Source of the DNA: a virus | Direction: 5' to 3' (one strand) | Virus record (IMG/VR): IMGVR_UViG_3300032087_001104 | Span: 1-21,151 of that record | Length of the DNA: 21,151 bases | Shown here: piece by piece, positions 1-17,208 of the stretch | Layout of the letters: every line of letters starts with the position of its first letter | Position numbering within the stretch: the stretch's first letter is position 1 | The notes under the pieces: model-generated | The model's database searches: none | Seen by the model: the letters and a program-made list of their open reading frames with translations, nothing else | What the model was told of the DNA's origin: nothing | Translations under genes and position numbers: made by a program

Positions 1-268
1 GGGCATATATTCTTGATTCTAAGTTTCTAATAAATCTTGCTAATGTTGTGTTCTCTGCTTCTCTTTCTAGCTCTTCTCGGTAAGCTTTTATTTCAGCCTT
101 GATGGCTGCTTTTCTGTTGAACTCTTGGTTCTCTATAGTAAGGTAATGAGCTGAACTATTAATACCACTAAAGGAAGGTGATTTAAACTTGTGAACTATT
201 TCATCTGCCACTAGGCTACCATTAACACCTAGCAACATTATTATAAATGTTGTTACTAATGCTTTCAT
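1..268 (-). CDS. csgF: CsgF-like curli assembly/transport protein, 3' end off the window
   Basis: I translated this myself from the minus strand; it is open for 89 codons to the window edge, so the C-terminus is missing. Residues 1-21 form a signal peptide (MK, then a hydrophobic stretch, with likely cleavage at LVA|DE) and there is no lipobox cysteine. The mature start has KFKSPSFSG, which corresponds to the FRNPNFGGN motif at the mature N-terminus of E. coli CsgF. Further on, LARFIRNLESRIYA corresponds to the CsgF helix before its C-terminal domain. Known family role: CsgF is a periplasmic/outer-membrane factor that binds the CsgG secretion channel and positions curli nucleation. Start choice: GAGGAG lies 9 bases before the ATG at 268 and only 3 bases before the in-frame ATG at 274, so I prefer 268. 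It follows the lysis genes closely, and its Shine-Dalgarno overlaps the end of the upstream gene. Family call from motifs only; function in the phage is unknown. Confidence 0.75.
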   Translation of the reverse strand, partial: MKALVTTFIIMLLGVNGSLVADEIVHKFKSPSFSGINSSAHYLTIENQEFNRKAAIKAEIKAYREELEREAENTTLARFIRNLESRIYA

Positions 269-281
269 TTCCATAATCTCC

Positions 282-632
282 TCAATCTTTTCGTTGGTCA
301 TCTCTATCAGCTTTCGCTATCTTTTCTATATCAATCAAATTTGGTACTCCTAATAAAGTTTTCAAAAGTACATCTTGTCTAATCGTTTGGTTATCTAAAG
401 CTCTAACTCGGTCAATCAAACTGACAATAATGCCATATTGACTATCAAGTTTAGTTCCGAGTCTTTGCTCCATAGCTGTTATTTGTTCAGCTACTTTCTC
501 ATCTACAACATCAAGTTTGGTTTCCATACCATCAACGATACGCATGATTAGTTTGTAAATAAACCAACCAAGACCTAAAGCTGCTGCTATAGGAAAACCT
601 ACTTGTTGTATTATAGTGACTATCTCTTCCAC
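282..632 (-). CDS. Single-span membrane protein with coiled coil, holin-like candidate
   Basis: This 116-residue protein has one hydrophobic segment at about residues 10-31, including a GFPIAAALGLGW stretch, followed by a charged helix of coiled-coil character at about 36-80 (METKLDVVDEKVAEQI and onward). The short N-terminus is acidic and the residues after the span are basic, so the positive-inside rule predicts N-out, C-in. The GFPIA-type N-terminus recalls small BhlA/YvrJ-like holin-associated proteins, but I cannot confirm the family. The start codon is GTG, overlapping the holin stop (TAGTG), with no strong Shine-Dalgarno nearby, which suggests translational coupling. Its place between the holin and the CsgF-like gene supports a role in lysis or its timing. 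An inner-membrane spanin is less likely because the predicted topology is inverted. Confidence 0.8.
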   Translation of the reverse strand: MEEIVTIIQQVGFPIAAALGLGWFIYKLIMRIVDGMETKLDVVDEKVAEQITAMEQRLGTKLDSQYGIIVSLIDRVRALDNQTIRQDVLLKTLLGVPNLIDIEKIAKADRDDQRKD

Positions 633-1105
633 TACTTATCGTTTGAGTTTGAAGCTCCAAAGTAAAATGAGATAACAGCACTAGCTAAGCCACCTAAATA
701 ACCTAAGACAAGGTTAATTAGAGCCTCTGAGTTTTGCTCTGGTGGTTGTAGAGTTACTAAGAATATGTAACCTAAGAAACCACCGACAGTAGCTATACCC
801 ATAATACGAGCTGTCCAGTCTTTACTAAAGTTCTTTCTAGCATCTTGCGTATCTGCTATTTCTAATTTGTAGACATCAACATCTAACTCTTTCATCTGTA
901 ACTCAAAAGCTTGTTCAGCTTTTTTAAGTTCTAGCATTTGTTCAGGTGTAGCTTCTGCTACTGCTTTCTCAATCGCTTTAGGGTTGTTAGGACAACCTAG
1001 CACTTCAGAAATCATATTACCTGCCATACCACCCATCGGGCCACCGAGAGCTGTACCAAGTGTCGGAGCCACTGCTCCCACGATATTTTTTAATAAATCT
1101 TTCAT
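632..1105 (-). CDS. Holin, 3-TM type
   Basis: A 157-residue protein resembling the three-transmembrane holin family found in phages and gene transfer agents. An N-terminal Gly/Ala-rich hydrophobic segment (about residues 6-36) is followed by a long polar helix (about 45-95) that ends in the characteristic ADTQDARKNFSKDW stretch. Two clear membrane spans follow at about 100-119 and 129-150. Holins accumulate in the inner membrane and open it at lysis. The gene overlaps the endolysin by four bases (ATGA), and AGGAG sits 7 bases before its ATG inside the endolysin 3' end. Adjacency to a cytoplasmic-type endolysin without a signal peptide supports the role, since such enzymes need a holin to reach the cell wall. 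Confidence 0.8.
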   Translation of the reverse strand: MKDLLKNIVGAVAPTLGTALGGPMGGMAGNMISEVLGCPNNPKAIEKAVAEATPEQMLELKKAEQAFELQMKELDVDVYKLEIADTQDARKNFSKDWTARIMGIATVGGFLGYIFLVTLQPPEQNSEALINLVLGYLGGLASAVISFYFGASNSNDK

Positions 1106-1557
1106 TTAACTTCTCCTAATACCATTTCTTGTAATTCTTTACTTCGTCTCCCTACTTGTCCAAACCATTTACTATCTTCCATTTGTCGAGCCATTTCTGT
1201 CCAATCATAAGAACGACAGGCTATTAACATGTTTCTAAATTTACTTAAGCGACTAGCTCCTAAGTTAAAACACATATTAACTAAAACATGTTGTATCTTT
1301 TCTGGTAAGTTATAAAAAGCTTCTTCCTCACCAAAGACATGTATTGTTTCTGCCAAATGTTTATCAAAGTCATCTTTAAAATATTTATCGACAACTTCTT
1401 GGCTAACTGATGCACCCACTTCCCATTCATATTCAGGGTCATGAGGTTGGAGGAGGTGGCCTACCCCTAAGGTTTTTAAACCTAAACTATCTAAATAGAC
1501 TTCAAGGACTTCACCTTCATGTCTTTTTATTTCTTGTTTACATAAATCAATGTTCAT
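1102..1557 (-). CDS. Endolysin, T4-type lysozyme (GH24 muramidase)
   Basis: A 151-residue protein of the usual single-domain T4 lysozyme length. The catalytic triad is visible as Glu14 (RHEG), Asp23 (YLDSLG) and Thr29 (KTLGVGH), with the same 9 and 6 residue spacing as Glu11/Asp20/Thr26 of T4 lysozyme. The C-terminal half keeps the family pattern NMCFNLGASRLSKF and the SKWFGQVGRRSKEL helix. The family cleaves the MurNAc-GlcNAc bond of peptidoglycan. There is no signal peptide or signal-anchor segment, so release should depend on the neighbouring holin. The start overlaps the upstream gene by 11 bases; GGAG lies about 10 bases before the ATG. Confidence 0.95.
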   Translation of the reverse strand: MNIDLCKQEIKRHEGEVLEVYLDSLGLKTLGVGHLLQPHDPEYEWEVGASVSQEVVDKYFKDDFDKHLAETIHVFGEEEAFYNLPEKIQHVLVNMCFNLGASRLSKFRNMLIACRSYDWTEMARQMEDSKWFGQVGRRSKELQEMVLGEVK

Positions 1558-11874: not shown

Positions 11875-14800
11875 TTAATTTCCTCCTTTCAATAGCTTTA
11901 TTTCACTCTTCAGTGACTCGATTTGTTCTTGTTGTTCTTGGATAGCTTTTATCAGTGGTGTTACTAGTTTTGAGTAATCCATTTGATAATAACCATCTTC
12001 ATTTTGTGATACTGCATTTGGTACTAGCTCTTGGACTTCTTGAGCTATCAAGCCTTCATCAGACTTGCCATCTGCTTTCCAGTCGTAAGCAACTGGGTTA
12101 AGTTTGTTAATAACTTCTAAACCTCTGGCAGACCCTGTGATGTCTTTTAGTCGTGCATCAGATGAAGTGTTGTAAGCTGTGGCTGAACCATCTGTGCTAA
12201 TGCTACCAACCTCTGAGTTTGCATATCTAAATTTAACTAATGCTCCTGTAGACGTTAATCTATTGCAAATTAACCCTTCACCACCACTTCTTGTTGCTAC
12301 CAATGCACCAGCTGGTTCTAAAGTCAGTCCTGCTGTAGAACTTGCACTTGTAGTCTTACCAACCAAGAAGTTGCCTGAACTATCAAACCTAGCACGTTCA
12401 TTTGCATTAGTACCGAATCTTAAATAGTTACTACCATGGTCGTATTGAATGTAACCAACATCATTGTCTAAGACATCACCAAACTTAAGACTATTAACTC
12501 CAGTAGTACCTAAAACTCCTAACCTTAATTCACTATCATTACCTGAAGGAGCCATTACTCTCACAATAGCATCCTCACCACTAATAGCTTTGACATTTAG
12601 TTGTGAATCACCAGCTGCTGTAGAACCATCGGCATCACCAACTTTAACGTGTCCTGAGACCTCTAAAGGTACAGTAGGCGAACTAGTTCCTATACCCCAG
12701 TTTTGTGTGCCAATAACACCTACAACAGAATCATTTTTAGCTATTTTTATAACATCGCCATCAGATGTTTTTCTGTTTAGATATAAAGGTTCTCCACCAT
12801 CTCTAGCAAAAGAAGCAAAACCTGAAGCACCATCAAATCTAAAACCAACTGTAGCATTATCAACTACTGTTTTACCTATTAGTAGTCTGCCTGAGCTGTC
12901 TATTCTGACTTTTTCTGAGCCAGCGATAAACCATTTATGAGCAGTAGCTCCATTTCCATTTTTTGATATTTGATAATCAGTAGAAACAAATGAACCACTC
13001 GAGTCTCTTGTATTTAAATTTAATGACCCAGCAGCATTTTGAATAGCTGTTATATTATATGTTGACCCTGCATCACTATCTTGTAGTCTTATTTCTGGTG
13101 AATTTGTATCTGATATATGTAACTTAGCACTTGGCGAACTAGTTCCTATACCGACATTTTCAGAAGAATCTAAAGTAATTCCTCTTTCACCAACAGTTCC
13201 ACCACCCCCATTTTGTATTTGTAACTTATTAGTTGCGTTATTTAGTATTATTTGTGCGTAGTTATCGTCATCAGTATCACCTAAAGCTAACTGAGCTAAA
13301 TTTGATGTTGAAGTTGTAATTGCTAAAACTGCTGCTGCACTAGTGTTGTAAACTTGCAGTTTTCTACTTGGCGAAGTAGTTCCTATCCCTACGTTGCCTG
13401 AGCTGTCTATGCGGAGACGTTCAGTTGGCTCTGTACCACCACTTCGTGTTCCAAATGTTAAAGAAGCATCTCTATCGCCTGATGAATCCCATGCTTGTTC
13501 TTTGACAGCCTTTACAAAAGCTGCATCATTTAAACTTGGAGTATAGCTTCTATAAAGTCTAAACATTATTTCTGAAGCATCATTGGCAGCATCAGTTGTA
13601 TAACCATTAGCTATTATCAAGCCTGTAGAATCTGCTGAAGATGTATCATTAATTTCCAACTTAGCAGAAGGCGAAGTAGTTCCTATGCCGACGTTACCTG
13701 AGTTATCAATCCTCATGCGTTCAGTGTTGTTGGTAAATATCATCAAGTGGTCATTACTTGAAGTACCAAGAGCAGCTAAAGAGCCTCCAAAGTTTGCATT
13801 TATTGCTAAAGTACGAGAACCTGCATAAGTTTGAAATTGGTCTGAAGCTCTTACTAAACCTACAACATCTAATGCGTGGGAAGGACTACTTGTACCGATA
13901 CCTACGTTGCCTGAATCTGTAATCCTCATTTTCTCAAAACAAGAACCAGCAGCAAGTGCAGTAGAAAAAGTTAAATCAGTACCAGCACCAGTTCCATCCA
14001 TTACTGGTGCAATAGCTGCACCTAAAGTAGCACCATTTGAGTTGGCTTTAGAAAAACCAAGCACTCCATAATAATTGCCATCTGTATATGAGCCTGATTG
14101 ATGGCTTAAAACAATAGAATCGCTTACTGATGTTAATGTAGCACTATCGCTAGTATTCTTTACATGAAGTGTGCCTTGAGGACTTGTTGTACCTATACCT
14201 ACGTTGCCTGAGGAATCAATACGCATATGTTCAGAACTTCCACCATCTCCAGCAAAAGTTAAAGCTGCACCAGAACCAACTGATATTCTTCCTTCTGATG
14301 TACTTCTTAAATAAAGACCTGTAGCATTTGAAACAGTATTTTCATCATTTAAAACTAATGCTGTGGTATCTGCTCCTGTATGGTTTATTTCTAATTTGTA
14401 GTTAGGGTTTGATGTACCGATACCAACGTTACCTGAGGAGGCGATTCTCATGCGTTCAGCCCCTGCTACATCAATAATTAAATTTGGACTAGAGCCTTCA
14501 GCATTTGCATCTACATCTATTGTTAGATTTCCTACAGAACTGTTAGCATTTATTATATGGTCAACATTTGTATTTGTATCTGTAAGCTGGATACGTGGGT
14601 CGGCTGCTGAAAGATGAAGCAAATGGGCAGGACTGCTTGTACCGATACCTACGTTGCCTGAACTGTCGATACGCATGGCTTCTGAGCCACTTGTAAAGAA
14701 CTGTTGTGTTCCATAATTAAGAAGCAAAGAATCACTTAAACTAGCACTATTCTCTTGTGCTAATTGGAATTTAAGCCTACCTTGACCACCTACTCCTGCA

Positions 14801-17208
14801 TACTGAGCATCTATTAATGCCCTAACACCAGCAGCATTTGTTGAAGAATCTTGTCCTTCAAATTCTATCTTACCTATTGTTTGTCCTGATGTTGCTGTTG
14901 TATCGGTATTTTCTATTCTGATTGCTGGGTCGGCTGCTGCTGAAATATGTAATAGTTGGTCTGGACTTGCAGTACCAATACCTACGTTGCCATTTGCTTG
15001 GATTCTAAATCTTTCTGGTAATGTTCCAGCATTTCTATTAATGAAAACCCAATCAGCATCTTCACTTGCTGCAGTTGTATCGGTAATTTCCATTTTAAAA
15101 ATACCCATACTGGTTTCAGTACCACTTGCATTATTACCTTTTACTAATAAACCACCTATATCATCTGAAGCTGCAGGTGAAGCAGAATCTCTAAATAAGG
15201 TTAAGTATGGTCCAGCATCTGCTGTTGCATCTGTAGAAACCAAACGTCCAGCAAATCTGCTAGATGTGTTTATTTCTAAAATTTCTGAAGGACTTGCAGT
15301 ACCGATACCTACGTTGCCTGAAGCATTAATAACCATGCGTTCAGTACCAAACGTATCGAATCTAATAATATCTTCATCGGCTGATTCTTCTACTTGAATC
15401 TTAGTATCGCCATCGGCATCTGAAATAGAATTGCTTGATATACCGCTAACTGAAGAATCAACGTAAGCTTTAATGGACTCTGAAGAAGCTAAGGTACTTG
15501 CAGTAGCTGTAGCAAAGGTATCGTCATCTAAGAAAGCTGTACCAGAAACTCCAGTATTTAGCACTGGGCTTGTAAGTGTTTTATTGGTTAAAGTTTGTGT
15601 ACCGGTCAGTGTAGCCACTGTAGAATCTATGGCTAGTGTGTCTGTGCTGAGTGTTAAACCTGTACCAGCTGTTAGAGCTGTCTTAGAAACACTAATGGCT
15701 GCACTAGCATTAATATCGTCATTGACTATAACACCTGAGCTAATAGCTGCCACACCAGTATCGGCAATAGTAATATCGCCTGACACCACATTGTCAATCC
15801 ACTTAGATGTTAAAGTATCATAAAATAATAGTGAAGCATCTGCAGGGGTTGTTAAATTAACATCTGTCAATTCTGATAGCTCATTAGCTGTTGCTACTTG
15901 AGCATCGACATAAGCTTTAACGGATTGTTGGGTTGGGACCAGTGTTGCTGAGTTTGAAACCATATCATCTTCATCAGCAAAAGCTGTAATGGTTATAACA
16001 CCATCTGATAGGGAACCATAAGTAACAGTCCCGGTAGTTGTAATGTTTGATGAGCCATTGTCGATAGCTCCGAAGCCTGACGTAATGCTACCAGCATTTA
16101 AGGCTCCAACTGTTGTAACATTTGATAGCGTATCTAAAGCTCCTTCAAAGTAAGTTTCAAAGTCTGTTAGAGCAACTTGCTTCATTACTCCAGCATCGTT
16201 GACAACAACTCTGTCAGCATCTGCTAAGGTGGTAGCAGTGGCTAATGTGTCGCCATCTACAATGTTGAGTTCTGTAGCTGTTGAAGTAACTCCGTCAAGA
16301 ATATTTAGTTCAGCAACAGTTGCAGTAATACCATCTAAGGTATTAATTTCAGCTGCTGTCGCAGTAACTCCATCAAGAATATTGAGTTCTGCTGCTGTTG
16401 AAGTAACAGCTGTACCATCAATAGATAGAGTATCAACTTCTGCTGTACCATCTATGTAAAGGTTTCGCCATTGTTTTGTAGCTGTACCTAAGTCGTAAGT
16501 ATCGTCAACATCTGGGACAATATTAGAAGCTACATCGGCTGTCAAAGTAATACTATCGGTATCGGCATCACCGAATGTTAGATTACCAGATATGGTGGCA
16601 TTACCAGTAACAGTCAGATTACCGCCAACTGATAAATCATTAGAGGCTGTAACATTACCTGTAAGTGTGGATGTACCAGTAACTGCTAAGGTTGAGCTAA
16701 GGGTTGTTGCACCTGTGACACCAAGAGTGCTGGAAAGAGTGGTAGCACCTGTGACACCTAATGTGCTGGATAGTGTGGTAGCTCCGGTAACTCCTAAAGT
16801 TGTACCGATTGTAGCAGCTTCATCAACTGTTAGAGTATCTATGGTGGCAGTACCATCTAAATATAAATCTTTAAACTCTAATGAAGAAGTACCTAAGTCT
16901 ATGTCGTTATCGGTAACAGGAATTATTGCACCATCTGCAATATAAAGTTGTTGTACTGGACTACTAGATACTTCAACATAAAATTCTATGTAGTTGTTAG
17001 TAGTATCTATGACTACTTTATTATTTGGTGAAGTCTCACCAGCATCACCTATCAGTCCTATAACTGGACCTTCGGCTGCTGTGCCATCGTGTTTGTGTCC
17101 TGAAGTATTGCTAAATGCATTTACTAATTGATTGTATTCGTTGTTAAATAACGCAGCTGTGATGGTATCGCCATCTGCCATCGTACTTTGTCGTGTATAA
17201 CCTGCCAT
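11875..17208 (-). CDS. Giant tail fibre/spike with C-terminal peptidase S74 chaperone
   Basis: The 1777-residue fibre is a quarter of the window. Residues 1-60 (MAGYTRQSTMADGDTITAAL, then HKHDGTAAEGP) are a likely virion-attachment region. Two tandem arrays follow, of 12-residue LGVTGATTLSST units (about 130-180) and 13-residue AELNILDGVTATA units (about 269-320). From about residue 625 to 1515 come ten GNVGIGT-type modules, each with a [TS]SP turn and a short beta strand, plus two degenerate versions (LLIGKT, FLVGKT). Residues 1681-1777 are a peptidase S74 intramolecular chaperone: TSSDARLK carries the Ser1683-Lys1688 pair at the spacing known from phage endosialidases, followed by GLIAQEVQELVP and a terminal coiled coil. 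The family trimerises, assists folding and then cuts itself off, so the mature fibre should end near residue 1682. AAGGAG precedes the ATG. Base composition is richer in GC than the neighbours by eye. The probable role is host recognition; the receptor is unknown. Confidence 0.9.
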   Translation of the reverse strand: MAGYTRQSTMADGDTITAALFNNEYNQLVNAFSNTSGHKHDGTAAEGPVIGLIGDAGETSPNNKVVIDTTNNYIEFYVEVSSSPVQQLYIADGAIIPVTDNDIDLGTSSLEFKDLYLDGTATIDTLTVDEAATIGTTLGVTGATTLSSTLGVTGATTLSSTLGVTGATTLSSTLAVTGTSTLTGNVTASNDLSVGGNLTVTGNATISGNLTFGDADTDSITLTADVASNIVPDVDDTYDLGTATKQWRNLYIDGTAEVDTLSIDGTAVTSTAAELNILDGVTATAAEINTLDGITATVAELNILDGVTSTATELNIVDGDTLATATTLADADRVVVNDAGVMKQVALTDFETYFEGALDTLSNVTTVGALNAGSITSGFGAIDNGSSNITTTGTVTYGSLSDGVITITAFADEDDMVSNSATLVPTQQSVKAYVDAQVATANELSELTDVNLTTPADASLLFYDTLTSKWIDNVVSGDITIADTGVAAISSGVIVNDDINASAAISVSKTALTAGTGLTLSTDTLAIDSTVATLTGTQTLTNKTLTSPVLNTGVSGTAFLDDDTFATATASTLASSESIKAYVDSSVSGISSNSISDADGDTKIQVEESADEDIIRFDTFGTERMVINASGNVGIGTASPSEILEINTSSRFAGRLVSTDATADAGPYLTLFRDSASPAASDDIGGLLVKGNNASGTETSMGIFKMEITDTTAASEDADWVFINRNAGTLPERFRIQANGNVGIGTASPDQLLHISAAADPAIRIENTDTTATSGQTIGKIEFEGQDSSTNAAGVRALIDAQYAGVGGQGRLKFQLAQENSASLSDSLLLNYGTQQFFTSGSEAMRIDSSGNVGIGTSSPAHLLHLSAADPRIQLTDTNTNVDHIINANSSVGNLTIDVDANAEGSSPNLIIDVAGAERMRIASSGNVGIGTSNPNYKLEINHTGADTTALVLNDENTVSNATGLYLRSTSEGRISVGSGAALTFAGDGGSSEHMRIDSSGNVGIGTTSPQGTLHVKNTSDSATLTSVSDSIVLSHQSGSYTDGNYYGVLGFSKANSNGATLGAAIAPVMDGTGAGTDLTFSTALAAGSCFEKMRITDSGNVGIGTSSPSHALDVVGLVRASDQFQTYAGSRTLAINANFGGSLAALGTSSNDHLMIFTNNTERMRIDNSGNVGIGTTSPSAKLEINDTSSADSTGLIIANGYTTDAANDASEIMFRLYRSYTPSLNDAAFVKAVKEQAWDSSGDRDASLTFGTRSGGTEPTERLRIDSSGNVGIGTTSPSRKLQVYNTSAAAVLAITTSTSNLAQLALGDTDDDNYAQIILNNATNKLQIQNGGGGTVGERGITLDSSENVGIGTSSPSAKLHISDTNSPEIRLQDSDAGSTYNITAIQNAAGSLNLNTRDSSGSFVSTDYQISKNGNGATAHKWFIAGSEKVRIDSSGRLLIGKTVVDNATVGFRFDGASGFASFARDGGEPLYLNRKTSDGDVIKIAKNDSVVGVIGTQNWGIGTSSPTVPLEVSGHVKVGDADGSTAAGDSQLNVKAISGEDAIVRVMAPSGNDSELRLGVLGTTGVNSLKFGDVLDNDVGYIQYDHGSNYLRFGTNANERARFDSSGNFLVGKTTSASSTAGLTLEPAGALVATRSGGEGLICNRLTSTGALVKFRYANSEVGSISTDGSATAYNTSSDARLKDITGSARGLEVINKLNPVAYDWKADGKSDEGLIAQEVQELVPNAVSQNEDGYYQMDYSKLVTPLIKAIQEQQEQIESLKSEIKLLKGGN
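11878..12168 (-). other. Peptidase S74 self-cleaving chaperone domain of the fibre
   Basis: This encodes fibre residues 1681-1777. Ser1683 (codon at 12160-12162) and Lys1688 form the expected catalytic pair in SDARLK. The rest matches the family layout: a central LNPVAYDWKADG strand, then GLIAQEVQELVP, MDYSKLVTPLIKAIQEQQ and a final Glu/Lys coiled coil. Predicted outcome is autocatalytic release of about 95 residues after trimer assembly. Confidence 0.88.
12330..15360 (-). repeat. Dispersed GNVGIGT-type modules in the fibre gene
   Basis: Ten copies of a short module reading roughly MRIDSSGNVGIGTSSP plus a beta strand are spaced irregularly along this stretch, nine with NVGIGT and one with NWGIGT. 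Two weaker versions near the low-coordinate end read LLIGKT and FLVGKT. The DNA is also similar between copies: on the plus strand, variants of cctacgttgcctga recur near 13390, 13910, 14200, 14650, 14980 and 15310. The unequal spacing shows that different sequence blocks sit between the repeats. Confidence 0.9.
16247..16402 (-). repeat. Four tandem 39-base repeats in the fibre gene
   Basis: Plus-strand units begin at 16247, 16286, 16325 and 16364, exactly 39 bases apart, and encode the 13-residue unit AELNILDGVTATA with small changes. A partial continuation starts at 16403. The unit is probably a repeated beta-strand and turn of the shaft. Confidence 0.9.
16673..16816 (-). repeat. Tandem 36-base repeats in the fibre gene
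   Basis: Two near-identical 36-base units at 16709-16744 and 16745-16780 are flanked by degenerate units at 16673-16708 and 16781-16816. They encode the 12-residue repeat LGVTGATTLSST, a likely triple-stranded beta shaft segment. Confidence 0.9.

Follow-up and report, generated by a model that had tools for sequence, protein, structure and literature searches.

A CsgF-family gene beside lysis-type genes in a marine podophage fragment, and the optional curli-type module to which it belongs

Introduction

Curli genes have been described in marine phages (PMC7029224, PMC9599517, PMC9004378; GenBank KC465899 and MZ577097), as the original prediction made for the DNA studied here also states. A "sibling capture" idea for the CsgF/CsgG of marine phages has already been published. 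In the SAR11 phages of Zhang et al. (PMC9599517), a "histidine kinase" (HK) gene always precedes csgF, as a single or a double copy; neither the lysis-gene neighbourhood of the module nor its empty sites were found in the text of that paper. For the Methylophilales phage Melnitz, a role in lysis was proposed from the synteny with thyX/ssrA (PMC9004378). The same paper considered csgA/B to be missing, suggested that CsgF may have lost its pairing with CsgG, and reported no clumping in Melnitz infections. The Melnitz record MZ577097 annotates two curlin-associated repeat proteins after csgG (L083:10327-11046, 12105-13121), which conflicts with the stated absence of csgA/B.

The function of these genes has been puzzling, with a fibre, an uptake pore and a lysis timer as the three ideas. 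The window analysed here, a virus record of 21,151 bases, ends within a csgF gene. This gene belongs to a curli module of the kind already known from SAR11 phages. For its placement beside lysis genes, its empty sites and the alternative cargo reported below, no description was found in the open-licence literature searched, and priority is uncertain.

Gene Layout of the Window

The window is a fragment, and its gene layout was derived from open frames and profile matches. Every long, plausible gene lies on the minus strand. These genes encode the capsid, the adaptor and other structural proteins, a 1,148-aa internal-virion-type protein and an 84-aa protein before the endolysin. The major capsid protein is closest to those of the SAR11 podophages HTVC115P, HTVC104P and HTVC103P (51-59% identity), and no isolate near the window at the DNA level was found. 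The protein encoded at 11875-17208 is 1,777 aa long, contains many near-repeat blocks (SSGNVGIGTxSP) and ends in an S74 peptidase, a self-cleaving chaperone.

Towards the left edge, four minus-strand genes follow each other. The endolysin (1102..1557) is of the phage lysozyme family (PF00959, PHROG 7). It is followed by a P1544 family membrane protein (PHROG 1544; 632..1105) with two strong hydrophobic stretches, which is holin-like by its position beside the endolysin and to which no library searched gives a function. The next gene (PHROG 18771; 282..632) encodes a small membrane protein, with one hydrophobic stretch and then a coiled coil, which is the companion of csgF in nearly all loci and is called small-TM here. 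The first 89 codons of csgF (2..268), cut by the contig end, encode the signal peptide, the CsgG-binding motif and the start of the helix region. Of the original claim that csgF lies just downstream of a holin and an endolysin, the endolysin and a holin-like gene upstream were recovered, but the holin label for 282-632 comes from a weak PHROG match (E 0.0023, over 21 residues only), the sole lysis assignment of this gene, which is not a proven holin.

The csgF Gene

The open frame 2..301 runs off the left edge of the window. Within it, a start at 268 (MKALVTTF...) appears better, because a GAGGAG lies upstream at a spacing of ~9 bases and the hydrophobic signal-like stretch begins there. The fragment carries SPSFSG after the signal peptide and LARFIRNLESRIYA at its end. 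The Pfam CsgF profile (PF10614) matches it with an E-value of 0.0024 in a whole-library scan and 4.9e-5 in a search of the record alone. The truncation at the contig end keeps its score (18.5 bits) below the gathering score of 25.8.

Longer relatives are clearer. Among viral contigs, at least 590 relatives were detected and 80 of them kept. The CsgF profile matched 18 of 18 aligned longer relatives (E <= 0.001; best 2.2e-20). The relative L002, 94% identical over the fragment, reaches 58.2 bits (1.2e-15) with nearly the whole profile covered, and L086 (45.8 bits) also lies above the gathering score. In a search with the phage-family profile, E. coli CsgF was the top PDB sequence, at an E-value of 0.09 only, and the alignment covers exactly the signal peptide and the N-terminal motif (HKFKSPSFSGIG / FQFRNPNFGGNP). 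Each of 70 full-length relatives has this CsgG-binding motif, and 68 of the 70 have the helix motif too. The residues F, P, F and G of the former and N, E, S, R, Y and A of the latter are among the invariant ones, HTVC008M and Melnitz included. The dN/dS of the window gene against its relatives is 0.04-0.13. The predicted model, of low confidence (pLDDT 64, with low confidence at 25-42), has helices and four strands, and a Foldseek search with it gave no match to CsgF in the PDB. Membership of the window gene in the CsgF sequence family is firm on its profile matches, its two signatures and its full-length relatives above the cut-off, in agreement with the original prediction of a CsgF-like protein at this edge.

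The window is 94.6% identical to L086 over positions 1-299, and the similarity ends exactly at the csgF start. L003 and L005 match the window at 81-83% through csgF, small-TM, P1544 and the endolysin. A recombination joint at the csgF start is likely from these comparisons.

The Curli Module beyond the Contig End

Since the window holds only part of csgF, the genes downstream are known from relatives. The exact first 28 bases of the window are present in two contigs. The overlap with the window is 144 bases (95%) for L085 and 299 bases (94.6%) for L086. Past base 1, L085 completes CsgF and then encodes CsgG of 272 aa, a secreted curlin-like protein of 234 aa, FecR of 361 aa, a protein of 147 aa whose start is signal-like, and a CHASE2-cyclase of 581 aa. 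Directly after csgF stands csgG, in this near relative as in the large majority of the loci retrieved, and CsgG was found in 77 loci. A csgG beyond base 1 had been anticipated, and it is indeed the next gene where near relatives continue. With CsgF matched, CsgG as its neighbour and the motif present in homologues, every condition that had been set to refute the original identification failed.

Phage CsgG matches PF03783 with an E-value of 7e-49, and the L002 protein matches the solved E. coli CsgG over residues 50-271 (E 1e-41). A lipobox is present in 72 of 77 phage CsgG proteins and the constriction-loop phenylalanine in all of them. In 73 loci, csgG is followed by the curlin-like gene. Its product matches the Pfam curlin repeats weakly (E <= 0.1 in 9 of 21 aligned members; best 8.6e-6). 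Its AlphaFold model is all beta (pLDDT 78), and a fold search of the PDB with this model gave no curlin match. The cyclase, present in most relatives, has in full length a CHASE2 and an adenylate/guanylate cyclase domain. The module consists of small-TM, csgF, csgG, the curlin-like gene, fecR and, mostly, the CHASE2-adenylate/guanylate cyclase.

The genes of the module are identifiable, stand in a fixed order and overlap, as in one translation unit. Crude Nei-Gojobori estimates of dN/dS are about 0.04-0.2 for csgF, csgG, the curlin-like gene and fecR. All four are under purifying selection, so the substrate gene is not a relic. CsgE, CsgC and CsgD were not seen in the phage module.

Judging from the genomes sampled, the hosts lack a curli system: csgF occurs in 2 of 197 Pelagibacteraceae genomes, both times on phage-like contigs. 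In a sample of Alphaproteobacteria, 6 of 289 genomes have it, five of them over the cut-off. Most of the bacterial genomes with the closest CsgF matches look as if phage contigs had been binned with them, and these genomes were not read as bacterial operons. In the gammaproteobacterial MAG contig L097 (5186-10286), csgF, csgG and curlin-like genes are followed by FecR, so FecR adjacent to curli genes also occurs outside phages. None of the three readable bacterial operons (L097, L111, L113) showed the small-TM gene, three being few. A 1.5-kb record named Salmonella phage (OR851715.1, hit H33) encodes CsgG and is likely host DNA.

The Small-TM Companion Gene

Of 68 loci in which a gene precedes csgF, 60 have a member of the small one-TM coiled-coil family at this place, in one or two copies of about 82-117 aa. 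Six records of the phage collection have CsgF, and these same six are the only ones with the family. When loci were searched from the small-TM family alone, with two subfamilies as queries, CsgF/CsgG lay downstream in 79/79 and 72/77 loci with sufficient room (151/156 together), counts biased upwards as the kept matches are those nearest to csg-derived queries. From its position and copy number, the HK of PMC9599517 is probably the small-TM gene. If it is the same gene, the histidine-kinase label does not hold: the members are short, and none of 24 has a HisKA or HATPase domain at E <= 0.01.

Lysis-Gene Neighbourhood and the Optional Block

Endolysin, P1544, a second putative holin-like family and Rz-type spanins were counted as lysis-type genes, both holin-like families being named from position and hydrophobic segments only. 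The spanins match PHROG 739 (E 2e-12) and PHROG 812 (E 3e-15). Of 81 loci, 51 have such a gene at most four genes away from csg, as do 29 of the 34 loci flanked by at least three genes either way; the loci are not independent lineages and no significance is claimed. They lie upstream of csg in the lineage of the window and downstream in L020, L030, L045, L058 and L066. In HTVC008M and Melnitz, csg is not adjacent to annotated lysis genes. Of the coupling of csgF to the lysis cassette that had been suggested, the physical link is real, but a functional one is unsupported, because small-TM accompanies csgF in myophages away from lysis genes and relatives without csg keep their lysis genes. That the block is optional counts against a role in lysis.

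Beside the lysis genes, the csg block is present or missing as a whole. In L194-L196 (one phage type) and L262, a small-TM pair is followed by spanins and endolysin without csg, and in L245 by endolysin. L194 runs collinear with the csg-carrying L023 as far as the csgF start codon (87%) and again from the i-spanin start codon onwards (85%; L194:3540-3680 vs L023:9917-13010). L023 is longer by 2,943 bases, which correspond to csgF to fecR; spanins and endolysin are intact in L194. The joint lies in a short sequence common to both start sites. The i-spanin of L194 is read from the counterpart of the csgF initiation site, and the empty site is precise from start codon to start codon.

For the arrangement of the window, a P1544 scan gave, among loci with sufficient room, 32 with endolysin, P1544, small-TM and csg and eight with endolysin and P1544 but neither small-TM nor csg. 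In this arrangement, small-TM and csg occur either together or not at all. Up to where P1544 ends, L306 and L336 align collinearly at 83% with L039 and L077, which carry csg. Past it, L306 and L336 encode a protein of long Thr/Asn repeats, signal-like at its start, and a second, large protein. Such proteins occupy the slot behind P1544 at L299:4462-7426, L306:4810-7303, L336:4813-8050 and L289:2142-5188; the slot can hold predicted secreted proteins other than those of csg. Neither protein has a Pfam match, and the large one was found in no phage record. A NIDO-like reading of the large protein was considered and is unsupported by Pfam.

Proposed Function of the Module

We lean, with moderate confidence, towards a late-expressed type VIII (curli) secretion cargo that exports a surface fibre and is not a component of lysis. 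CsgG would form a lipoprotein-anchored ring in the outer membrane, and the N-terminus of CsgF would sit inside it, as in E. coli. The phage curlin-like protein would be exported and would polymerise on the infected cell late in infection. Such a fibre may hold neighbouring cells or released virions close, or shield the cell from competing phages. The placement in the late region suggests that it would matter at release or shortly before it. Three observations favour export of the curlin-like protein through a canonical CsgG:CsgF channel: the substrate gene is conserved, CsgF has kept its motif and CsgG matches in full length. This argues against the ideas of an unpaired CsgF and missing curlin genes (PMC9004378). 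The weak curlin-repeat matches, the unseen CsgE, the two predicted models that find neither curlin nor CsgF in the PDB, and the Melnitz infections without clumping (PMC9004378) count against the fibre.

In another explanation, CsgG, alone or together with CsgF, would be a repurposed pore that times lysis or disrupts the outer membrane, as already proposed for Melnitz (PMC9004378). The closeness of lysis-type genes to the module (51/81 of the non-independent loci, 29/34 of the well-flanked ones) speaks for it. However, complete-looking lysis genes in the csg-less relatives argue against a required role: endolysin is kept, in L194-L196 and L262 together with two Rz-type spanin genes, and several csg-carrying lineages also have spanins. 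Moreover, the curlin-like substrate is conserved and under selection, the CsgG-binding motif is among the most conserved parts of CsgF, and curlin-associated repeat proteins are annotated in the Melnitz record even though csgA/B were described as missing. We consider this pore unlikely.

It also seems quite improbable that the small-TM gene is a holin or antiholin that provides the real link to lysis, with csg as a passenger behind it. The small-TM pairs kept without csg beside spanins and/or endolysin in L194-L196, L245 and L262 would fit, as would the weak PHROG holin match (E 0.0023 over 21 residues). Against this, small-TM disappears together with csg in the arrangement of the window while endolysin and P1544 stay, and HTVC008M and Melnitz have it in front of csgF at a distance from lysis genes. 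An ungated CsgG pore for the uptake of larger nutrients or cofactors during infection, with fibre export secondary or absent (PMC7029224, PMC9599517), agrees with the unseen CsgE gate gene and with the sensing suggested by FecR and the cyclase, but is just as improbable, as it leaves unexplained the conserved CsgF and curlin-like protein and a location in the lysis region, where uptake would pay little.

The surface-fibre reading may be taken further, into a proposal that we regard as possible but doubtful. The region behind the lysis genes of marine podophages would be a cargo slot for alternative extracellular-protein cassettes, with the surface of the dying host routinely remodelled, and small-TM would give phage curli systems a new subunit of their own in the inner membrane. 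If so, phages would control where their progeny and neighbouring cells end up, curli being one cassette and the Thr/Asn-repeat and large proteins another. Natural phages with and without csg have the same kind of lysis genes, and one pair differs by the exact block, which makes the fibre, the uptake pore and the lysis timer separable. Their comparison also suggests where to look for other surface cargo.

Comparison with Known Systems

With the E. coli csgDEFG/csgBAC system, the phage module shares the homology of CsgG over the ring and barrel regions and the N-terminal motif of CsgF. It differs in that CsgE, CsgC and CsgD are not seen, the substrate is divergent, FecR and a CHASE2-cyclase are added, and the constriction loop reads SNSxFAxF in place of YPASNF. 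The HTVC023P-type SAR11 podophages (PMC9599517) have the same order of csgF, csgG, curlin, FecR and cyclase, with one or two copies of the "HK" before csgF, whereas the genes at this position here have no histidine-kinase domain. HTVC008M and other pelagimyophages (PMC7029224; KC465899) also carry two small-TM genes, csgF, csgG, a curlin-like gene, a gene at the FecR position and the cyclase. HTVC008M differs in being T4-like, in having csg away from annotated lysis genes and in a CsgF of about 37% identity. The Methylophilales phage Melnitz (PMC9004378; MZ577097) has the same module, with the conserved CsgF motif.
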